Shown in pieces: positions 18,063 to 24,088 of a DNA stretch of 24,088 nt; position 1 is the stretch's first letter; the number at the start of each line of letters is the position of its first letter. The position numbers were made by a program, and so were the translations under genes. The DNA comes from a virus: positions 1 through 24,088 of the IMG/VR virus record IMGVR_UViG_3300042691_035038; one strand, 5' to 3'. The notes below the pieces were generated by a model. The model was not told the DNA's origin. It did not search any database and saw only the letters and a list, made by a program, of their open reading frames with translations.

Positions 18063-18189
18063 TCACACTTGCAGAAATCATGGCTCATGTAGTTATTGCA
18101 AAGATAACAGACTTTTTTCTGATAAAAAAAGAAAATATTCTATTGACGAAGAGTACGATGAGTTTATAGATAGCGAAGACGATTTATGA
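17992..18189 (+). CDS. Small CxxHxxCxxC protein, possible zinc finger (65 aa)
   Basis: The first 50 residues contain KAIKHGKEKRKQYRGSKAFD, then TCRNHGSCSYCKDNR. The Cys/His arrangement C-x2-H-x2-C-x2-C could hold zinc. I recall a similar short protein with a conserved 'RGSKAFD..CRNHGSC' block in other phages, but its function is not known to me. The C-terminus is acidic (DEEYDEFIDSEDDL). The start lies inside the 17379-18062 gene in the +1 frame, giving a 71-bp out-of-frame overlap, and the stop overlaps the next ATG by 4 bp. Confidence 0.75.
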   Translation: MGLEKAIKHGKEKRKQYRGSKAFDHTCRNHGSCSYCKDNRLFSDKKRKYSIDEEYDEFIDSEDDL

Positions 18190-19391
18190 GATTCTCTCTT
18201 ACTACATCTTTTTATAATAATTCTCATCATGTTGAGCGTCTTTATAATTCAATTAAAGCTCAAACTTATAAAAATTGGGAGTGGATTGTAACTGATGATT
18301 TTTCTCAACACTCATCTTCTAAAGAATTGCTGATGGAGATAGCAAAAAATGATAGAAAGGTTAAATATGTTGACCAGTACTATAAAAAAGAAATGTTTTG
18401 GAATCCACAAAATTTCTGCAAAGACGCAGAAATCATAGTACAAATGGATTCAGATGATACCCTAGTACCAAAAGCTCTTGAAGTTTATCATCATTTTTTT
18501 ACAAAATTTCCAGATGTTATATTAATGATATCTGCGGCACATGAAATCAACGAAAAAGATAAAAAATGGAAGTGGTATGATTTTTTAGATAATAGATTAT
18601 TTAATAATTTATCTTGTGGGTATATGACTTTTTTTAGAGCTTGGAGAAATAATTGTAACATTATTTATAATTTCAATCCAGATAATTTAATGAAACATTA
18701 TTTCAATGATTATTCATTAGTGTGCTCTATTGAAGAGTATGGGAAAGTTTTATCTTTGCCTAGAGATTTATATCGCAGAAGCTCCAGAGAGGAGTCTATT
18801 TCTTCTGTACCAACCCCTACTCATAGTGTTGAAAATGAAAGGATTTATTTATCTGACAAAATAAAAAAAAGAAGACTTAATCCTGAATTTGATAGTTTTA
18901 ATAGATATTTTGATCCAATTTTAGATTTTAAATATTGTTTTTCTGATATATCATTTGGAGAAACCTCTCAGCAATTAAAGATTTCTTTTCATTCAAAATG
19001 TTTAAACTCTCAAAAAGAAAACTTATTGAAAGAGTTATACTTCGACCATCACATCATTTTTAATAAAACAGATGGAGATGAAGACTATCTTTTTGTAAAT
19101 GCTGCATCTACCGATGATATTAAAAATTTCGTTCAGACAGCAAAAAATTTTAATATCAAAAATTTAGTGTGTGTTATAAATAAATCTTTTTTTGATCCTG
19201 AAGACCTGTTCAGTAATAAAAAAACTTTACATGATCTTGACGAAAGGCCAATACCAAAAGGTTTAAAATTTAAAGAAAAAAATTTTATTGGATTAACTCA
19301 TGAAGAAATTTTTAATTTATTTTCTGAAACTGGTTTTTCGTTTCACTTCATGGAGCATTGTCAATATAATTTTTATAGAATTTTAAAGTAA
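18186..19391 (+). CDS. Family 2 (GT-A) glycosyltransferase (401 aa)
   Basis: Inverting glycosyltransferase of the GT2 type. The N-terminus is canonical: FSLTTSFYNNSHHVERLYNS, then KNWEWIVTDDFS, and the DxD metal/nucleotide-sugar motif in IIVQMDSDDTLVPKALE (D88/D90/D91). The GT-A domain occupies about 1-220. The C-terminal 180 residues form a separate, unrecognised domain rich in Asn, Lys and Phe. No membrane segment is seen, so it acts on a soluble or protein acceptor or works peripherally. The gene is among the most AT-rich in the window and differs in codon use from nrdAB. It overlaps the upstream gene by 4 bp. Confidence 0.88.
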   Translation: MRFSLTTSFYNNSHHVERLYNSIKAQTYKNWEWIVTDDFSQHSSSKELLMEIAKNDRKVKYVDQYYKKEMFWNPQNFCKDAEIIVQMDSDDTLVPKALEVYHHFFTKFPDVILMISAAHEINEKDKKWKWYDFLDNRLFNNLSCGYMTFFRAWRNNCNIIYNFNPDNLMKHYFNDYSLVCSIEEYGKVLSLPRDLYRRSSREESISSVPTPTHSVENERIYLSDKIKKRRLNPEFDSFNRYFDPILDFKYCFSDISFGETSQQLKISFHSKCLNSQKENLLKELYFDHHIIFNKTDGDEDYLFVNAASTDDIKNFVQTAKNFNIKNLVCVINKSFFDPEDLFSNKKTLHDLDERPIPKGLKFKEKNFIGLTHEEIFNLFSETGFSFHFMEHCQYNFYRILK

Positions 19392-19407
19392 AATATATTT
19401 AATAGAC

Positions 19408-20301
19408 ATGATTAAACCAATTATTTCAACTGGGCCAGAATGGATTGGACTCGGAGATGTTTTATGGTTTCTCCCGACTATAAAAAAACTTTCTTTGACG
19501 CTGGATCAAAAGTTAGATGTAGTTACTAAATATCCTGAAGTTTTTTTAAATAATCCGTATGTAGATAAAATCTTTGATTCAGAGACTTTTGATAAAAAAA
19601 GTCAAAACGGCAATCATTATTTTTTTGATCCTTATAAAAACGGTGATGGATTTTTATTTTTTACTTCAAACAACAGGCAAATGATAGCTAATCATTGTAG
19701 AATATCTCTTTTGCCGCATGAAGAAGAAATTGAATTTTATCCAAAAGGACAACCTCTTAATTTCTTACCTCCAAAATATATTTATTTAAATGCCTCAATA
19801 AGAGGCCCAGATAGAAATTTGGGCAAAGAAAATTGGCAAAAACTTGTTGATATTTTGAATGAAAACAATATTCCAGTTGTTGTTGAGGGGCCAACTGAAC
19901 ATACTTATAGTCTAGAAATAAGAAATGGAGTAAATTTAATAGGCAAAACTTCATCTTTAAGTGAAACTTGGCACACGATAAACCAATCATCAGCTTTTAT
20001 TTCATTTGATACTGGAATGTATATTTTTGCGGGGTCAACACAAACTCAAATATTTTTAATAAATACTTATTTTGAAGATTATTGGCACAGACCATCTAGA
20101 AAAGGATCTTACGATTATAAATTTTCAGTTATAAAAGGAAATTGCGAAGAAAAATGTATGAGCAATTTTAAATATTACAAAACTCCAATGGGTCTTTATC
20201 AACCTAAAGCGCAAAGTTGTCCATTAAAAATTAATTTTAAGTGCATTCCATCTGTAGAAACAATAGCCAAAAATATTATTAATTATTGGAAAACAATTTA
20301 A
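19408..20301 (+). CDS. Family 9 glycosyltransferase, heptosyltransferase-like (297 aa)
   Basis: GT-B enzyme of the ADP-heptose:LPS heptosyltransferase type. Shared features are the N-terminal WIGLGDVLWFLPTIKKL (about 11-27), the YIYLNAS strand opening the C-terminal domain, and SFDTGMYIFAGSTQTQIFLI (about 198-217), equivalent to the 'D-S/T-G-x-x-H-x-A-x-A' donor site. Usual bacterial members are about 320-350 residues, so this is a compact version. A Cys cluster near the C-terminus (NCEEKC, QSCPLKINFKC) is unusual. Its presence with a GT2 enzyme suggests building of an oligosaccharide, possibly LPS-like. It is very AT-rich, and the start ATG has no Shine-Dalgarno. Confidence 0.85.
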   Translation: MIKPIISTGPEWIGLGDVLWFLPTIKKLSLTLDQKLDVVTKYPEVFLNNPYVDKIFDSETFDKKSQNGNHYFFDPYKNGDGFLFFTSNNRQMIANHCRISLLPHEEEIEFYPKGQPLNFLPPKYIYLNASIRGPDRNLGKENWQKLVDILNENNIPVVVEGPTEHTYSLEIRNGVNLIGKTSSLSETWHTINQSSAFISFDTGMYIFAGSTQTQIFLINTYFEDYWHRPSRKGSYDYKFSVIKGNCEEKCMSNFKYYKTPMGLYQPKAQSCPLKINFKCIPSVETIAKNIINYWKTI

Positions 20302-21402: not shown

Positions 21403-21932
21403 TAACAGTGATTTGCACTACTCCTAAGAGAGAAGCGTGGCTAAAGGATTGTTTGCAATCTTTTGGTGAAAGGCCAGTTATGATTTTATCTGACTATACT
21501 TTTGAAATAGGTAAGATAAATTTTGTAATGAAACACACAAATATTGAAAAGTTTTTGTTATTGCAGGATTCAGTTATTTTTAAAAATGTCGAAAAGTTTT
21601 ACGAAACTCTTTCGCAATATCAAGGCTCTGTTTCGGTCAACAGTTATCCAGGATTTTATGGTTCATATATGGGCGTTTATGAAAGAAGAATACTTAAAAA
21701 AATGCAAATCCCAATAGCCAGATCAAAGAGAGATCAAGTAATTTTTGAAACAACTTTCAATAAAGGTTATGTGGAACTTTTGGGCGGCTCTGTTCCAATT
21801 ATGTATCCTGAGTTGAATGATCTCAACAATACAGGTCTTGCAGAACGACATGGTAGAACAAATCTGGTTTTAGAAAATGACGTTATGATAAAATACAAAG
21901 GAACATGGCGTTGGGATCAAATTAAAGATTAA
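21399..21932 (+). CDS. Small glycosyltransferase-like protein (177 aa)
   Basis: The layout is that of a minimal GT-A fold: a first strand ITVICTTPKREAWLKDCLQS, then a strand with KFLLLQDSVIFKN in the place of the usual DxD region, and GYVELLGGSVPIMYPEL followed by GLAERHGRTN near the acceptor side. The canonical DxD is reduced to QDS, so catalysis is not assured. At 177 residues it is shorter than typical GT2 enzymes (over 220). It is coupled by a 4-bp overlap to the cytidylyltransferase, which favours a role in the same pathway. Confidence 0.55.
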   Translation: MITVICTTPKREAWLKDCLQSFGERPVMILSDYTFEIGKINFVMKHTNIEKFLLLQDSVIFKNVEKFYETLSQYQGSVSVNSYPGFYGSYMGVYERRILKKMQIPIARSKRDQVIFETTFNKGYVELLGGSVPIMYPELNDLNNTGLAERHGRTNLVLENDVMIKYKGTWRWDQIKD

Positions 21933-21941
21933 ATCACAAAT

Positions 21942-21958
21942 AACTTAACTACAAATAA
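21942..21958 (+). promoter_or_regulatory. AACTTAA-N3-CAAATAA element before the cupin gene
   Basis: AACTTAA (21942-21948), a 3-bp gap, then CAAATAA (21952-21958) directly before the ATG at 21959. The same two blocks with the same gap precede the next gene at 22348-22364. No Shine-Dalgarno is present. It may be a phage-specific promoter or initiation element; no consensus known to me matches. Confidence 0.35.
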
Positions 21959-22354
21959 ATGAATACTTTGTCTCCGCAATTAATTTCATTTCCTAAGCCA
22001 CAAATCCACCTCAAAGGATGGGGTTCAGAAACTTGGCTAATTAATTGCCCCGATTATTGTTGCAAGTTTCTTGACTTTAAAAAAGATGCCAAGGGCAGTA
22101 TGCACTTTCACGATAAAAAGCATGAAACTTGGTACATCCTTTCTGGAACCGTCTGTGTTTCTTGGACAGACGCTAATACAGGAATGACAAATAAAAAAAT
22201 CATAGCTCAAGGCGAAATGGTAGATATTCCACGTTTGCAGCCGCATCAAGTTTATGCTTTGGAAGAATCCCGTATTCTTGAAGTCTCTACCCAACATTTT
22301 GAAGAAGACTCTTATCGTGTTCTTCCTGGTGATTCTCAATCACGAACAACTTAA
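21959..22354 (+). CDS. Cupin-domain protein (131 aa)
   Basis: Single-domain cupin. Motif 1 is complete: G-S-M-H-F-H-D-K-K-H-E-T-W-Y-I-L-S-G, fitting HxH(x)4E(x)6G. Motif 2 is GEMVDIPRLQPHQ, with the last His ligand. The N-terminal WGSETWLIN and YCCKFL resemble the cupin half of type II mannose-6-phosphate isomerase, suggesting a sugar-nucleotide or sugar-phosphate role, though many cupins have other jobs. It probably binds a divalent metal through the three His and one Glu. It lies between the small glycosyltransferase-like gene and the methyltransferase, which supports glycan metabolism by context. Confidence 0.85.
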   Translation: MNTLSPQLISFPKPQIHLKGWGSETWLINCPDYCCKFLDFKKDAKGSMHFHDKKHETWYILSGTVCVSWTDANTGMTNKKIIAQGEMVDIPRLQPHQVYALEESRILEVSTQHFEEDSYRVLPGDSQSRTT

Positions 22355-22364
22355 AAGCAAATAA
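22348..22364 (+). promoter_or_regulatory. AACTTAA-N3-CAAATAA element before the 22367 gene
   Basis: AACTTAA (22348-22354, including the stop of the cupin gene) and CAAATAA (22358-22364) have the same spacing as at 21942-21958, here 2 bp from the ATG at 22367. Confidence 0.35.
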
Positions 22365-22366
22365 GT

Positions 22367-22618
22367 ATGAAATTTGAAATTACTCAAGGTTGTACCGCAT
22401 ATGACTTTACTGTAGACGGAAAACGGTACAATGATCTTTCCTCAGAAGAAAAAGCAAAAATTATCGATCATGTTCTGGCAAAGGTAAAAGAGCAAATTCT
22501 TAATAATCACATGGCGTTTGAAGGAATCATGGAGCATTTCCAATATGATTATCATGAAATTGGCCCTAAATGCGGTCAATGCGGAGATTCGGTAAGTAAA
22601 ACAATCATTACTATTTGA
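22367..22618 (+). CDS. Small unknown protein with terminal CxxC (83 aa)
   Basis: Not recognised by name. The middle is a charged helix (SSEEKAKIIDHVLAKVKEQI). The C-terminus is KCGQCGDSVSKTIITI, a Cys-x-x-Cys 'knuckle' followed by a beta strand, a layout I have seen at the end of other small phage proteins. The last 18 bases of the gene are part of a direct repeat that recurs at 23287-23307, and its stop overlaps the methyltransferase ATG (TGATG). Confidence 0.75.
   Translation: MKFEITQGCTAYDFTVDGKRYNDLSSEEKAKIIDHVLAKVKEQILNNHMAFEGIMEHFQYDYHEIGPKCGQCGDSVSKTIITI
22596..22616 (+). repeat. Direct repeat flanking the methyltransferase gene, left copy
   Basis: GTAAAACAATCATTACTATTT matches 23287-23307 (GTGAAACAATCATTACTATTT) at 20 of 21 positions. 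The left copy is the coding end of the 22367-22618 gene. A looser ATTC[G/T]GT match precedes both copies, with a 4-bp gap. Confidence 0.85.
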
Positions 22619-23265
22619 TGAAAAATCAATTCAAATTGACTAACGTTCAAGATTTGCCAATGATCGTTTACGAAGATTTCGATATCATTTCCAATGAAAT
22701 TATAAAAAATAAAAATTTTTATGAATTTGAAATTTTTAATAAATGGAAATCTTACTTCCCATCTGACGGACTGATGTTAGATATTGGAGCTAATATTGGA
22801 AATCATTCATTGATGTTTCACAAATATTTTCCTAATTTAAATATATGGTCTTTTGAAATTCATTATGTTAATTTTACTTTCTTAAGAAAGAACACTGAAC
22901 TTTATCCAAAAATCAAGTGTTTTAATGTTGGGGTTGGTAGTTGCAACGGAATAGTTCACTATGGAAATGGGCCTGAGTTTAACAAGGGCGGCGTAACAAT
23001 TTCTCCAGATGGTCAGAATGTCAATTTCGTATTATCTTTAGATAGTTTTTCATTTCCAGAGCCTGTTAAATTTATAAAAATAGACATCGAACAGCATGAA
23101 TTTTCTGCATTTCAAGGTATGACAAATATGTTAAAAAAAGACAAACCCATAATTTGGTTAGAAGATTTTAATGGAATAGCAAGTGAATATTTATTTAATT
23201 TAGGTTATCAAATTATTGATGTAGAAGAAAACACTCACAATTATTTAATGACAAATAAATTTTAA
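22618..23265 (+). CDS. FkbM-family methyltransferase (215 aa)
   Basis: SAM-dependent methyltransferase of the FkbM type, which commonly O-methylates sugars. The SAM-binding motif I is LDIGANIGNHSL (54-65), followed by the acidic SFEIH (78-82). VKFIKIDIEQHEFSAFQGM is the characteristic FkbM motif with 'K-I-D-I-E/V-G-H-E', and the C-terminus ends with the typical 'L..LGY.I' block. The ATG at 22618 is used; a TTG at 22615 would add one residue. The gene is flanked by 21-bp direct repeats (22596-22616 and 23287-23307), suggesting a single-gene insertion. By context it would methylate a product of the neighbouring glycosyltransferases (inference). Confidence 0.9.
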   Translation: MKNQFKLTNVQDLPMIVYEDFDIISNEIIKNKNFYEFEIFNKWKSYFPSDGLMLDIGANIGNHSLMFHKYFPNLNIWSFEIHYVNFTFLRKNTELYPKIKCFNVGVGSCNGIVHYGNGPEFNKGGVTISPDGQNVNFVLSLDSFSFPEPVKFIKIDIEQHEFSAFQGMTNMLKKDKPIIWLEDFNGIASEYLFNLGYQIIDVEENTHNYLMTNKF

Positions 23266-23274
23266 AAAAATCTT

Positions 23275-23305
23275 TTGACTAATTCTGTGAAACAATCATT
23301 ACTAT
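23275..23305 (+). promoter_or_regulatory. Candidate leaderless promoter of the 23310 gene
   Basis: TTGACT (23275-23280), preceded by an A-tract, is followed by TACTAT (23300-23305) after 19 bp. The expected start is about the ATG at 23310. The -10 half belongs to the right copy of the direct repeat; the -35 half lies inside the inserted segment. No Shine-Dalgarno is present. Confidence 0.45.
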
Positions 23306-23307
23306 TT
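23287..23307 (+). repeat. Direct repeat flanking the methyltransferase gene, right copy
   Basis: GTGAAACAATCATTACTATTT is a 20/21 match to 22596-22616. Read in the frame of the left gene it gives ETIITI and a stop, so it looks like a remnant of the 3' end of the 22367 gene. It is followed by AA and then the ATG of the next gene. Confidence 0.85.
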
Positions 23308-23309
23308 AA

Positions 23310-23846
23310 ATGATTAATAATGTTTATAAGTTGTCTGATGAGCAGCGCAAACTTGCTGAAAAACTTGGCATGGCTCGCAACAACGCAAAACATGAATCGT
23401 TCCGAGATAAAGATCGATTTAAAATTAACAGAGAAAGCGGCTACTCTCATATCCTTGGCATCTCTGCCGAGATCGCCTACGCAGCTTTAACTAATCAAGA
23501 AATCGATACTAAAATTTATGACCTTGGCGATCAGATTGATTTTGATGGTGTTGAAATCAAGGCTGCGACTTGGCCCCATAAGAATATTGAATTAAAAATT
23601 CCTTTTGAAGAATATGAGAAAAAGAATCCTAAAATCTATGTTCTCGCCAGAATTGACAAAAATTACACTACAGTTGAATTCATAGGTTCAATCTCAAGAA
23701 AAACATTTGACCAGTTAAAGTACCACAAGAAGCATACCCAAGTAGATAACTGGTGCGTCAACGAAGATCAAATGTTCAAAGTCCTAGCCTTCTTCAAGGA
23801 TGGCAAGTACGAGCAAAAAGAATTTAATTCAAAAAAAATCTCTTGA
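23310..23846 (+). CDS. PD-(D/E)XK nuclease-fold-like protein (178 aa)
   Basis: Residues 52-90 read SAEIAYAAL, then GDQIDFDGVEIKAATW. This fits the PD-(D/E)XK pattern: an N-terminal Glu (E54), Asp at 77/79, then E82-x-K84 followed by a strand. IELKIPFEEY and VLARID continue the core sheet, and NWCVN is near the end. Such proteins include restriction-like and repair nucleases in many phages. The N-terminal 45 residues are basic and may contact DNA. The gene sits directly before a UV-damage endonuclease gene, which supports a DNA-processing role (inference). Its stop TGA lies inside the TTGACC box that precedes the next gene. Confidence 0.65.
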   Translation: MINNVYKLSDEQRKLAEKLGMARNNAKHESFRDKDRFKINRESGYSHILGISAEIAYAALTNQEIDTKIYDLGDQIDFDGVEIKAATWPHKNIELKIPFEEYEKKNPKIYVLARIDKNYTTVEFIGSISRKTFDQLKYHKKHTQVDNWCVNEDQMFKVLAFFKDGKYEQKEFNSKKIS

Positions 23847-23848
23847 CC
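23843..23848 (+). promoter_or_regulatory. TTGACC box upstream of the UV-endonuclease gene
   Basis: TTGACC lies 35 bp before the ATG at 23878, preceded by an A-tract as in the other boxes. A good -10 hexamer cannot be seen in the expected place (23865-23873), so the promoter call is weaker than for the other three sites. Confidence 0.3.
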
Positions 23849-23877: not shown

Positions 23878-24088
23878 ATGCAACTCGCACTCTGCTGCAT
23901 CTCCAACGTTCTTGCCGAGCAAGGTCACAAGTTCCAGACTATGACCTTGACCCGTTTTTTGTCGCTGCCCCGTGCAGACGCCATTCGCACTCTCAGTGAC
24001 CGCATCCTCAACAACTTTATTGTTACCAATCGCGTCATTCAGCATTGCGCCGACACTGGCATTGCTGGCTACCGTTTGTCGTCCACGC
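23878..24088 (+). CDS. UV-damage endonuclease UvdE-like, 3'-truncated by the window
   Basis: Seventy codons are visible. MQLALCCISNVLAEQGHKFQ opens the protein, followed by LSDRILNNFIVTNRVIQHC and GYRLSS. This matches the N-terminus of UvdE/UvsE enzymes: a first strand with 'C-I-S' and a long helix with 'R...N......I..C', then 'YR-x-SS'. UvdE is a TIM-barrel metallo-endonuclease that nicks 5' of UV photoproducts. The frame is open to the last base, and the rest lies beyond the window. Base composition is visibly richer in G and C than the preceding genes and closer to nrdA. The only start without a long extension is the ATG at 23878, with no clear Shine-Dalgarno. Confidence 0.8.
   Translation, partial: MQLALCCISNVLAEQGHKFQTMTLTRFLSLPRADAIRTLSDRILNNFIVTNRVIQHCADTGIAGYRLSST

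Follow-up and report, generated by a model that had tools for sequence, protein, structure and literature searches.

Phage mosaicism is usually seen only once its joints have decayed. In T4-type phages, mobile regulatory cassettes consisting of promoter stem-loops (PeMob/PeSL) were reportedly described by Arbiol et al. in 2010 (cited in PMC4503421). The locus that we analyse here is like them in that exchangeable phage accessory genes are flanked by repeats of a short regulatory sequence located where genes meet. Unlike PeMob-type elements, which lie at many sites of a genome, each border sequence here derives from the flanking genes and has only two copies within the window (the whole 24,088-nucleotide stretch of viral DNA analysed). 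T4-type phages also show microhomology joints in break repair, as well as co-conversion (PMC2988022). The slots of the free-standing T-even seg and mob homing endonucleases share with our locus an intergenic site between conserved genes, nucleases in some relatives and microhomology joints (PMC2988022), whereas here the gained gene is a methyltransferase. In T6, SegB drives segmental amplification of a microhomology-bounded segment (PMC13096335). A small microhomology-flanked segment beside a nuclease gene is common to both cases, but in T6 one and the same segment is repeated in tandem under selection, while here two different genes appear to have been stacked once.

The locus reads A/L - FkbM - R - L - B - R - uvsE, where L and R are two border repeats, and comprises the following features:

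21959-22354, + strand: cupin gene, whose leader (21932-21958) resembles that of gene A (22338-22364), with 22 of 27 bases identical
22367-22618, + strand: gene A, 83 aa, a conserved hub gene with homologues in relatives
22596-22616, + strand: L copy 1, coding 3′ end of A and leader of FkbM
22618-23265, + strand: inserted gene, FkbM-family (PF05050) methyltransferase of 215 aa, by Pfam and phrog_8156
23264-23279, + strand: R copy 1, AAAAAAATCTTTTGAC, a copy of the uvsE leader with its -35-like element, beginning at the FkbM stop codon
23280-23290, + strand: new junction where R copy 1 meets L copy 2, with a shared GTG at 23287-23289
23287-23307, + strand: L copy 2, non-coding, repeats A's 3′ end and forms the leader of B
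23310-23846, + strand: gene B, 178 aa, the usual slot occupant in the nearest relatives and, by its motif, a possible PD-(D/E)XK-like nuclease
23832-23847, + strand: R copy 2, AAAAAAATCTCTTGAC, at the end of B; the TGA of its TTGAC is B's stop
23878-24088, + strand: start of the UvdE/uvsE-type UV-damage endonuclease gene, which bounds the slot on the right; the homologue in contig L004 matches PF03851 at 1.6e-34

The two copies of L (GTAAAACAATCATTACTATTT and GTGAAACAATCATTACTATTT) are identical at 20 of 21 positions, with a longest exact run of 18, and the preliminary description had placed this 21-bp repeat with one mismatch correctly. It is the sole pair of 21-mers with one mismatch or fewer in the 24 kb (mean of first-order Markov simulations, 0.017). 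With up to three mismatches allowed, L matched nowhere in the window but at these two places; the expectation from dinucleotide shuffles is 0.01. That description had also asked if the repeat might be common elsewhere in the genome; a search for a third copy within the window found none. Copy 1 encodes the last seven codons of A and its stop (SKTIITI, then TGA), and the ATG of FkbM at 22618 shares one base with that stop (TGATG). Copy 2 runs into the TAA ATG of gene B, just as it does at the empty sites described below, and FkbM is, as first proposed, the only gene between the copies.

We compared the locus with IMG/VR contigs, which are fragments whose gene calls are mechanical open reading frames. 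The search with protein A returned 23 loci, that is, 22 further homologues 72-96% identical and one 100% copy. Six contigs representing three sequence types (L004-L009) lack FkbM, and in them A is followed directly by B: A's TTTAA abuts the ATG of B through the same joint as in L copy 2. The clean A-B junction predicted from the window alone thus exists in nature, and it is not the case that all relatives carry the gene. In two further contigs (L002, L003) the uvsE leader lies directly 3′ of A, and B is missing. The flanks of these relatives are 85-95% identical to the window. The only near-identical record (L001/L024) also contains FkbM and is 100% identical over 2,972 bp. A chimeric assembly was considered and rejected, as the junction is identical in this second contig, 3300031951_012499.

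The FkbM reading frame is intact, with its stop at 23263-23265. Its product has motif I and matches Pfam Methyltransf_21 (E=3e-9, 37.7 bits against a cut-off of 22.7) and phrog_8156 (1.6e-19); it thus resembles the family in domain and motif, while being only ~26-31% identical to phage relatives; matches in a phage database reached no more than 26-30%. Since the neighbouring genes include glycosyltransferase, cytidylyltransferase and cupin genes, the enzyme's probable role, as family and context suggest, is O-methylation of a sugar that the surrounding glycan genes produce. Two observations concern this neighbourhood. GT2- and GT9-type genes at 18186-20301 are unique to the window among its relatives and, at 27-29% GC, as AT-rich as FkbM. 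The conserved gene c3 at 20303-20953 matches phrog_3704, which is labelled ferredoxin (2.6e-48), yet sits amid glycan genes.

That FkbM was gained in the lineage of the window, and not lost elsewhere, is well supported by comparison of the sequences, because relatives have empty sites, the outgroups hold other genes where FkbM sits (c16 or HNH), and its GC content is 27.5%, compared with 34.9% in A and 36.3% in B. The preliminary description had likewise read the locus as a gene gain. An FkbM search whose reach was close relatives only gave a single match, the contig identical to the window, and no donor was found in bacterial and archaeal genomes. We also considered a mobile FkbM gene, and rejected it: the FkbM-type genes elsewhere in L010, L057 and L061 belong to a different subfamily, are ~31% identical and have no flanking repeats.

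A second direct repeat had been missed. R (AAAAAAATCTTTTGAC at 23264-23279, AAAAAAATCTCTTGAC at 23832-23847) corresponds to the promoter-like start of the uvsE leader, AAAAAAATCTYTTGAC, and follows FkbM as well as B. R copy 1 differs from the uvsE leader start by 1 mismatch in 16, and none of 20,000 random window pieces scored as high against this leader as the piece after FkbM. The similarity may extend to 23289, the bases after TTGAC (TAATTCTGTG) still being uvsE leader with a small gap of 6 bases (extension p about 0.004). R copy 1 is a short stretch rich in A and T. Its 15-mer pattern by itself turns up in shuffles not infrequently when 2 mismatches are tolerated, so the assignment relies on its exact position at the FkbM stop. 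In relatives R occurs once, directly after the gene that precedes uvsE (A in L002/L003, B in L004/L005), which suggests that FkbM was probably once that gene. TTGAC lies 29-33 bases 5′ of the uvsE ATG in 17/17 relatives checked, and in the window the distance is 30 bases, to uvsE and to B alike, so that it may well be a -35 element; a scan for consensus promoters gave no excess over shuffles. The TGA of this conserved TTGAC is often the stop of the preceding gene, as for B in the window (23843-23847) and c11 in L062 and L105.

The region just before uvsE is an accessory slot with variable content. A uvsE profile scan yielded 80 loci, with c11 directly before uvsE (31 loci), HNH (11), A and c16 (8), A and HNH with or without c26 (5), A only (2) or a GT2-FkbM fusion (1, L126); further contigs have A-B and A-FkbM-B. 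Altogether, 8 arrangements were observed between c3/c11 and uvsE, plus A-B and A-FkbM-B. The fusion (L126:1507-2901; PF05050 1.9e-9, GT2 1.5e-4) lies between c11 and uvsE and, judging from its domain matches, shows as an independent case that FkbM-domain genes can occupy the slot. It shortens the C-terminus of c11, and an apparent HNH remnant, read by eye, lies downstream. Separately, L046:6668-11924 (also L004-L009, L060 and L065) holds a curli-type secretion and cyclase cassette between c3 and A, inside phage contigs. Its genes, several with strong Pfam matches, are for CsgF, CsgG (1.9e-51), a curlin-like protein rich in Asn, a FecR protein and a CHASE2-nucleotide cyclase (CHASE2 3.6e-39, cyclase 1.4e-21).

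Both borders of the slot are duplicated in the window: the left one (L, where gene A ends) and the right one (R, where the uvsE leader starts). The duplication of R as well as L points to a tandem stacking of two alternative slot occupants, and we think it probable that FkbM was gained in this way, by recombination between related phages. One parent would have carried FkbM in the slot (A-FkbM-R-uvsE) and the other B (A-B-R-uvsE). R would then have been joined ectopically to L through a few shared bases, possibly only the GTG at 23287-23289, placing FkbM in front of L-B and giving A/L-FkbM-R-L-B-R-uvsE; the exact breakpoint would fall within 23280-23290. L would be present twice because the same bases serve as the last codons of A and as the leader of B, so that both copies are needed, and selection may have acted on this leader. 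The scan for FkbM, among close relatives only, found no A-FkbM-uvsE parent. The microhomology-type origin proposed at the outset is plausible, but L is not a simple insertion footprint, since the R border is doubled too.

A one-step event would do without a second parent. Foreign FkbM DNA would have been inserted illegitimately at a staggered break in the end of A, with fill-in duplicating 21 bp in the manner of a target-site duplication and any R-like sequence being coincidental or foreign. The single gene, its foreign composition and the clean 21-bp duplication all agree with such an insertion. We nevertheless regard it as unlikely, given that it leaves unexplained why a nearly exact copy of the first bases of the uvsE leader, AAAAAAATCTTTTGAC, begins at the FkbM stop codon and why the bases before L copy 2 resemble that leader; nor was any transposase or integrase-like gene found in the FkbM cassette.

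The recombination could also have been triggered by homing endonucleases, with nucleases of the slot cutting slot-less relatives, and co-conversion and microhomology repair dragging along or stacking neighbours such as FkbM. HNH+AP2 endonucleases, identified by Pfam and PHROGs, occupy the slot in many relatives, and T4 offers precedents both for co-conversion with microhomology repair (PMC2988022) and for SegB acting with microhomology (PMC13096335). B and c16 carry nuclease-like motifs, by motif only: they share the E..D..ExK columns, a pattern that suggests a PD-(D/E)XK-like nuclease for B. B had no match to a Pfam nuclease domain, its predicted structure is poor (pLDDT 48), and the slot of the window itself is devoid of an HNH gene. 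This trigger, which we hold to be doubtful, would be compatible with the stacking of two occupants and could supply its breaks.

It had further been proposed that FkbM is gained and lost in a phase-like manner. In such a reversible cassette, recombination between the 21-bp repeats would switch the gene on and off in the population, and excision through L would indeed recreate exactly the A-B junction of the relatives, while excision through R would, in principle, give A-FkbM-uvsE. Contrary to this proposal, no empty genome close to the strain of the window was found in IMG/VR, the nearest empty flanks being about 93-95% identical, and the only near-identical record is filled. Furthermore, the 18-bp exact core of L falls short of the minimal pairing lengths (MEPS) of 23-27 bp for Red-beta and 31-34 bp for RecA (PMC3945230), and no dedicated recombinase was found in the FkbM cassette. 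Phase-like switching is hence very unlikely, and loss back to A-B should be possible but rare. An ancestral FkbM lost through the repeats would leave the very junction observed in relatives, but this is hardly credible, as it requires independent losses in all other lineages, including the outgroups with c16 or HNH, and is at odds with the foreign composition of the gene.

Other gene ends in this family have outlived their genes. In the window and in L004, L005, L006 and L014, a stretch of 24 bases before A agrees at 21-23 positions with the coding end of c11, a gene that is itself absent. Before uvsE in genomes with c16 (L010, L014, L043), the 3′ end of HNH is recognisable in a stretch of 52-59 bases, about 45-48 of which are identical, and in L010 this remnant is still open in frame. 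The null p-values for these kept ends are conservative, as random pieces could overlap the true site. Such matches suggest that a gene end overlapping the leader or promoter of the next gene tends to persist when its own gene is replaced. The 21-bp repeat fits this rule, A needing the bases as codons and B as leader.

We also rejected a general system of repeat-bounded cassettes: in a triple test on ~50 other insertion polymorphisms none had a comparable repeat, leaving FkbM as the only case with a strong one, which also counts against the generality of the stacking route. A test on leaders only added weaker cases, namely cupin and A, c6 and c20 in L010, and the promoter-like c17 and c14 in L046. 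From its leader, the cupin gene may be another, weaker example of a gene between similar leaders. In L010 the c6 and c20 leaders (1145-1169 and 1770-1794) are alike, and an FkbM-type gene lies just upstream of c6. It is conceivable, if rather improbable, that the accessory genes of this family travel as units of leader plus ORF, joined where one gene's end doubles as the leader of the next, with occupants that stack, duplicate both borders and later resolve to either single-occupant state.

The 21-base repeat is best read as a scar of recombination, that is, as ordinary phage mosaicism that happens to be unusually legible. For this recent gain of one gene, the two borders that stem from the parents can still be read, and relatives provide empty sites as well as other occupants. 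The locus thereby illustrates how a slot can take up a further gene, as opposed to exchanging one, while the preceding gene and the leader of the following one stay unbroken.
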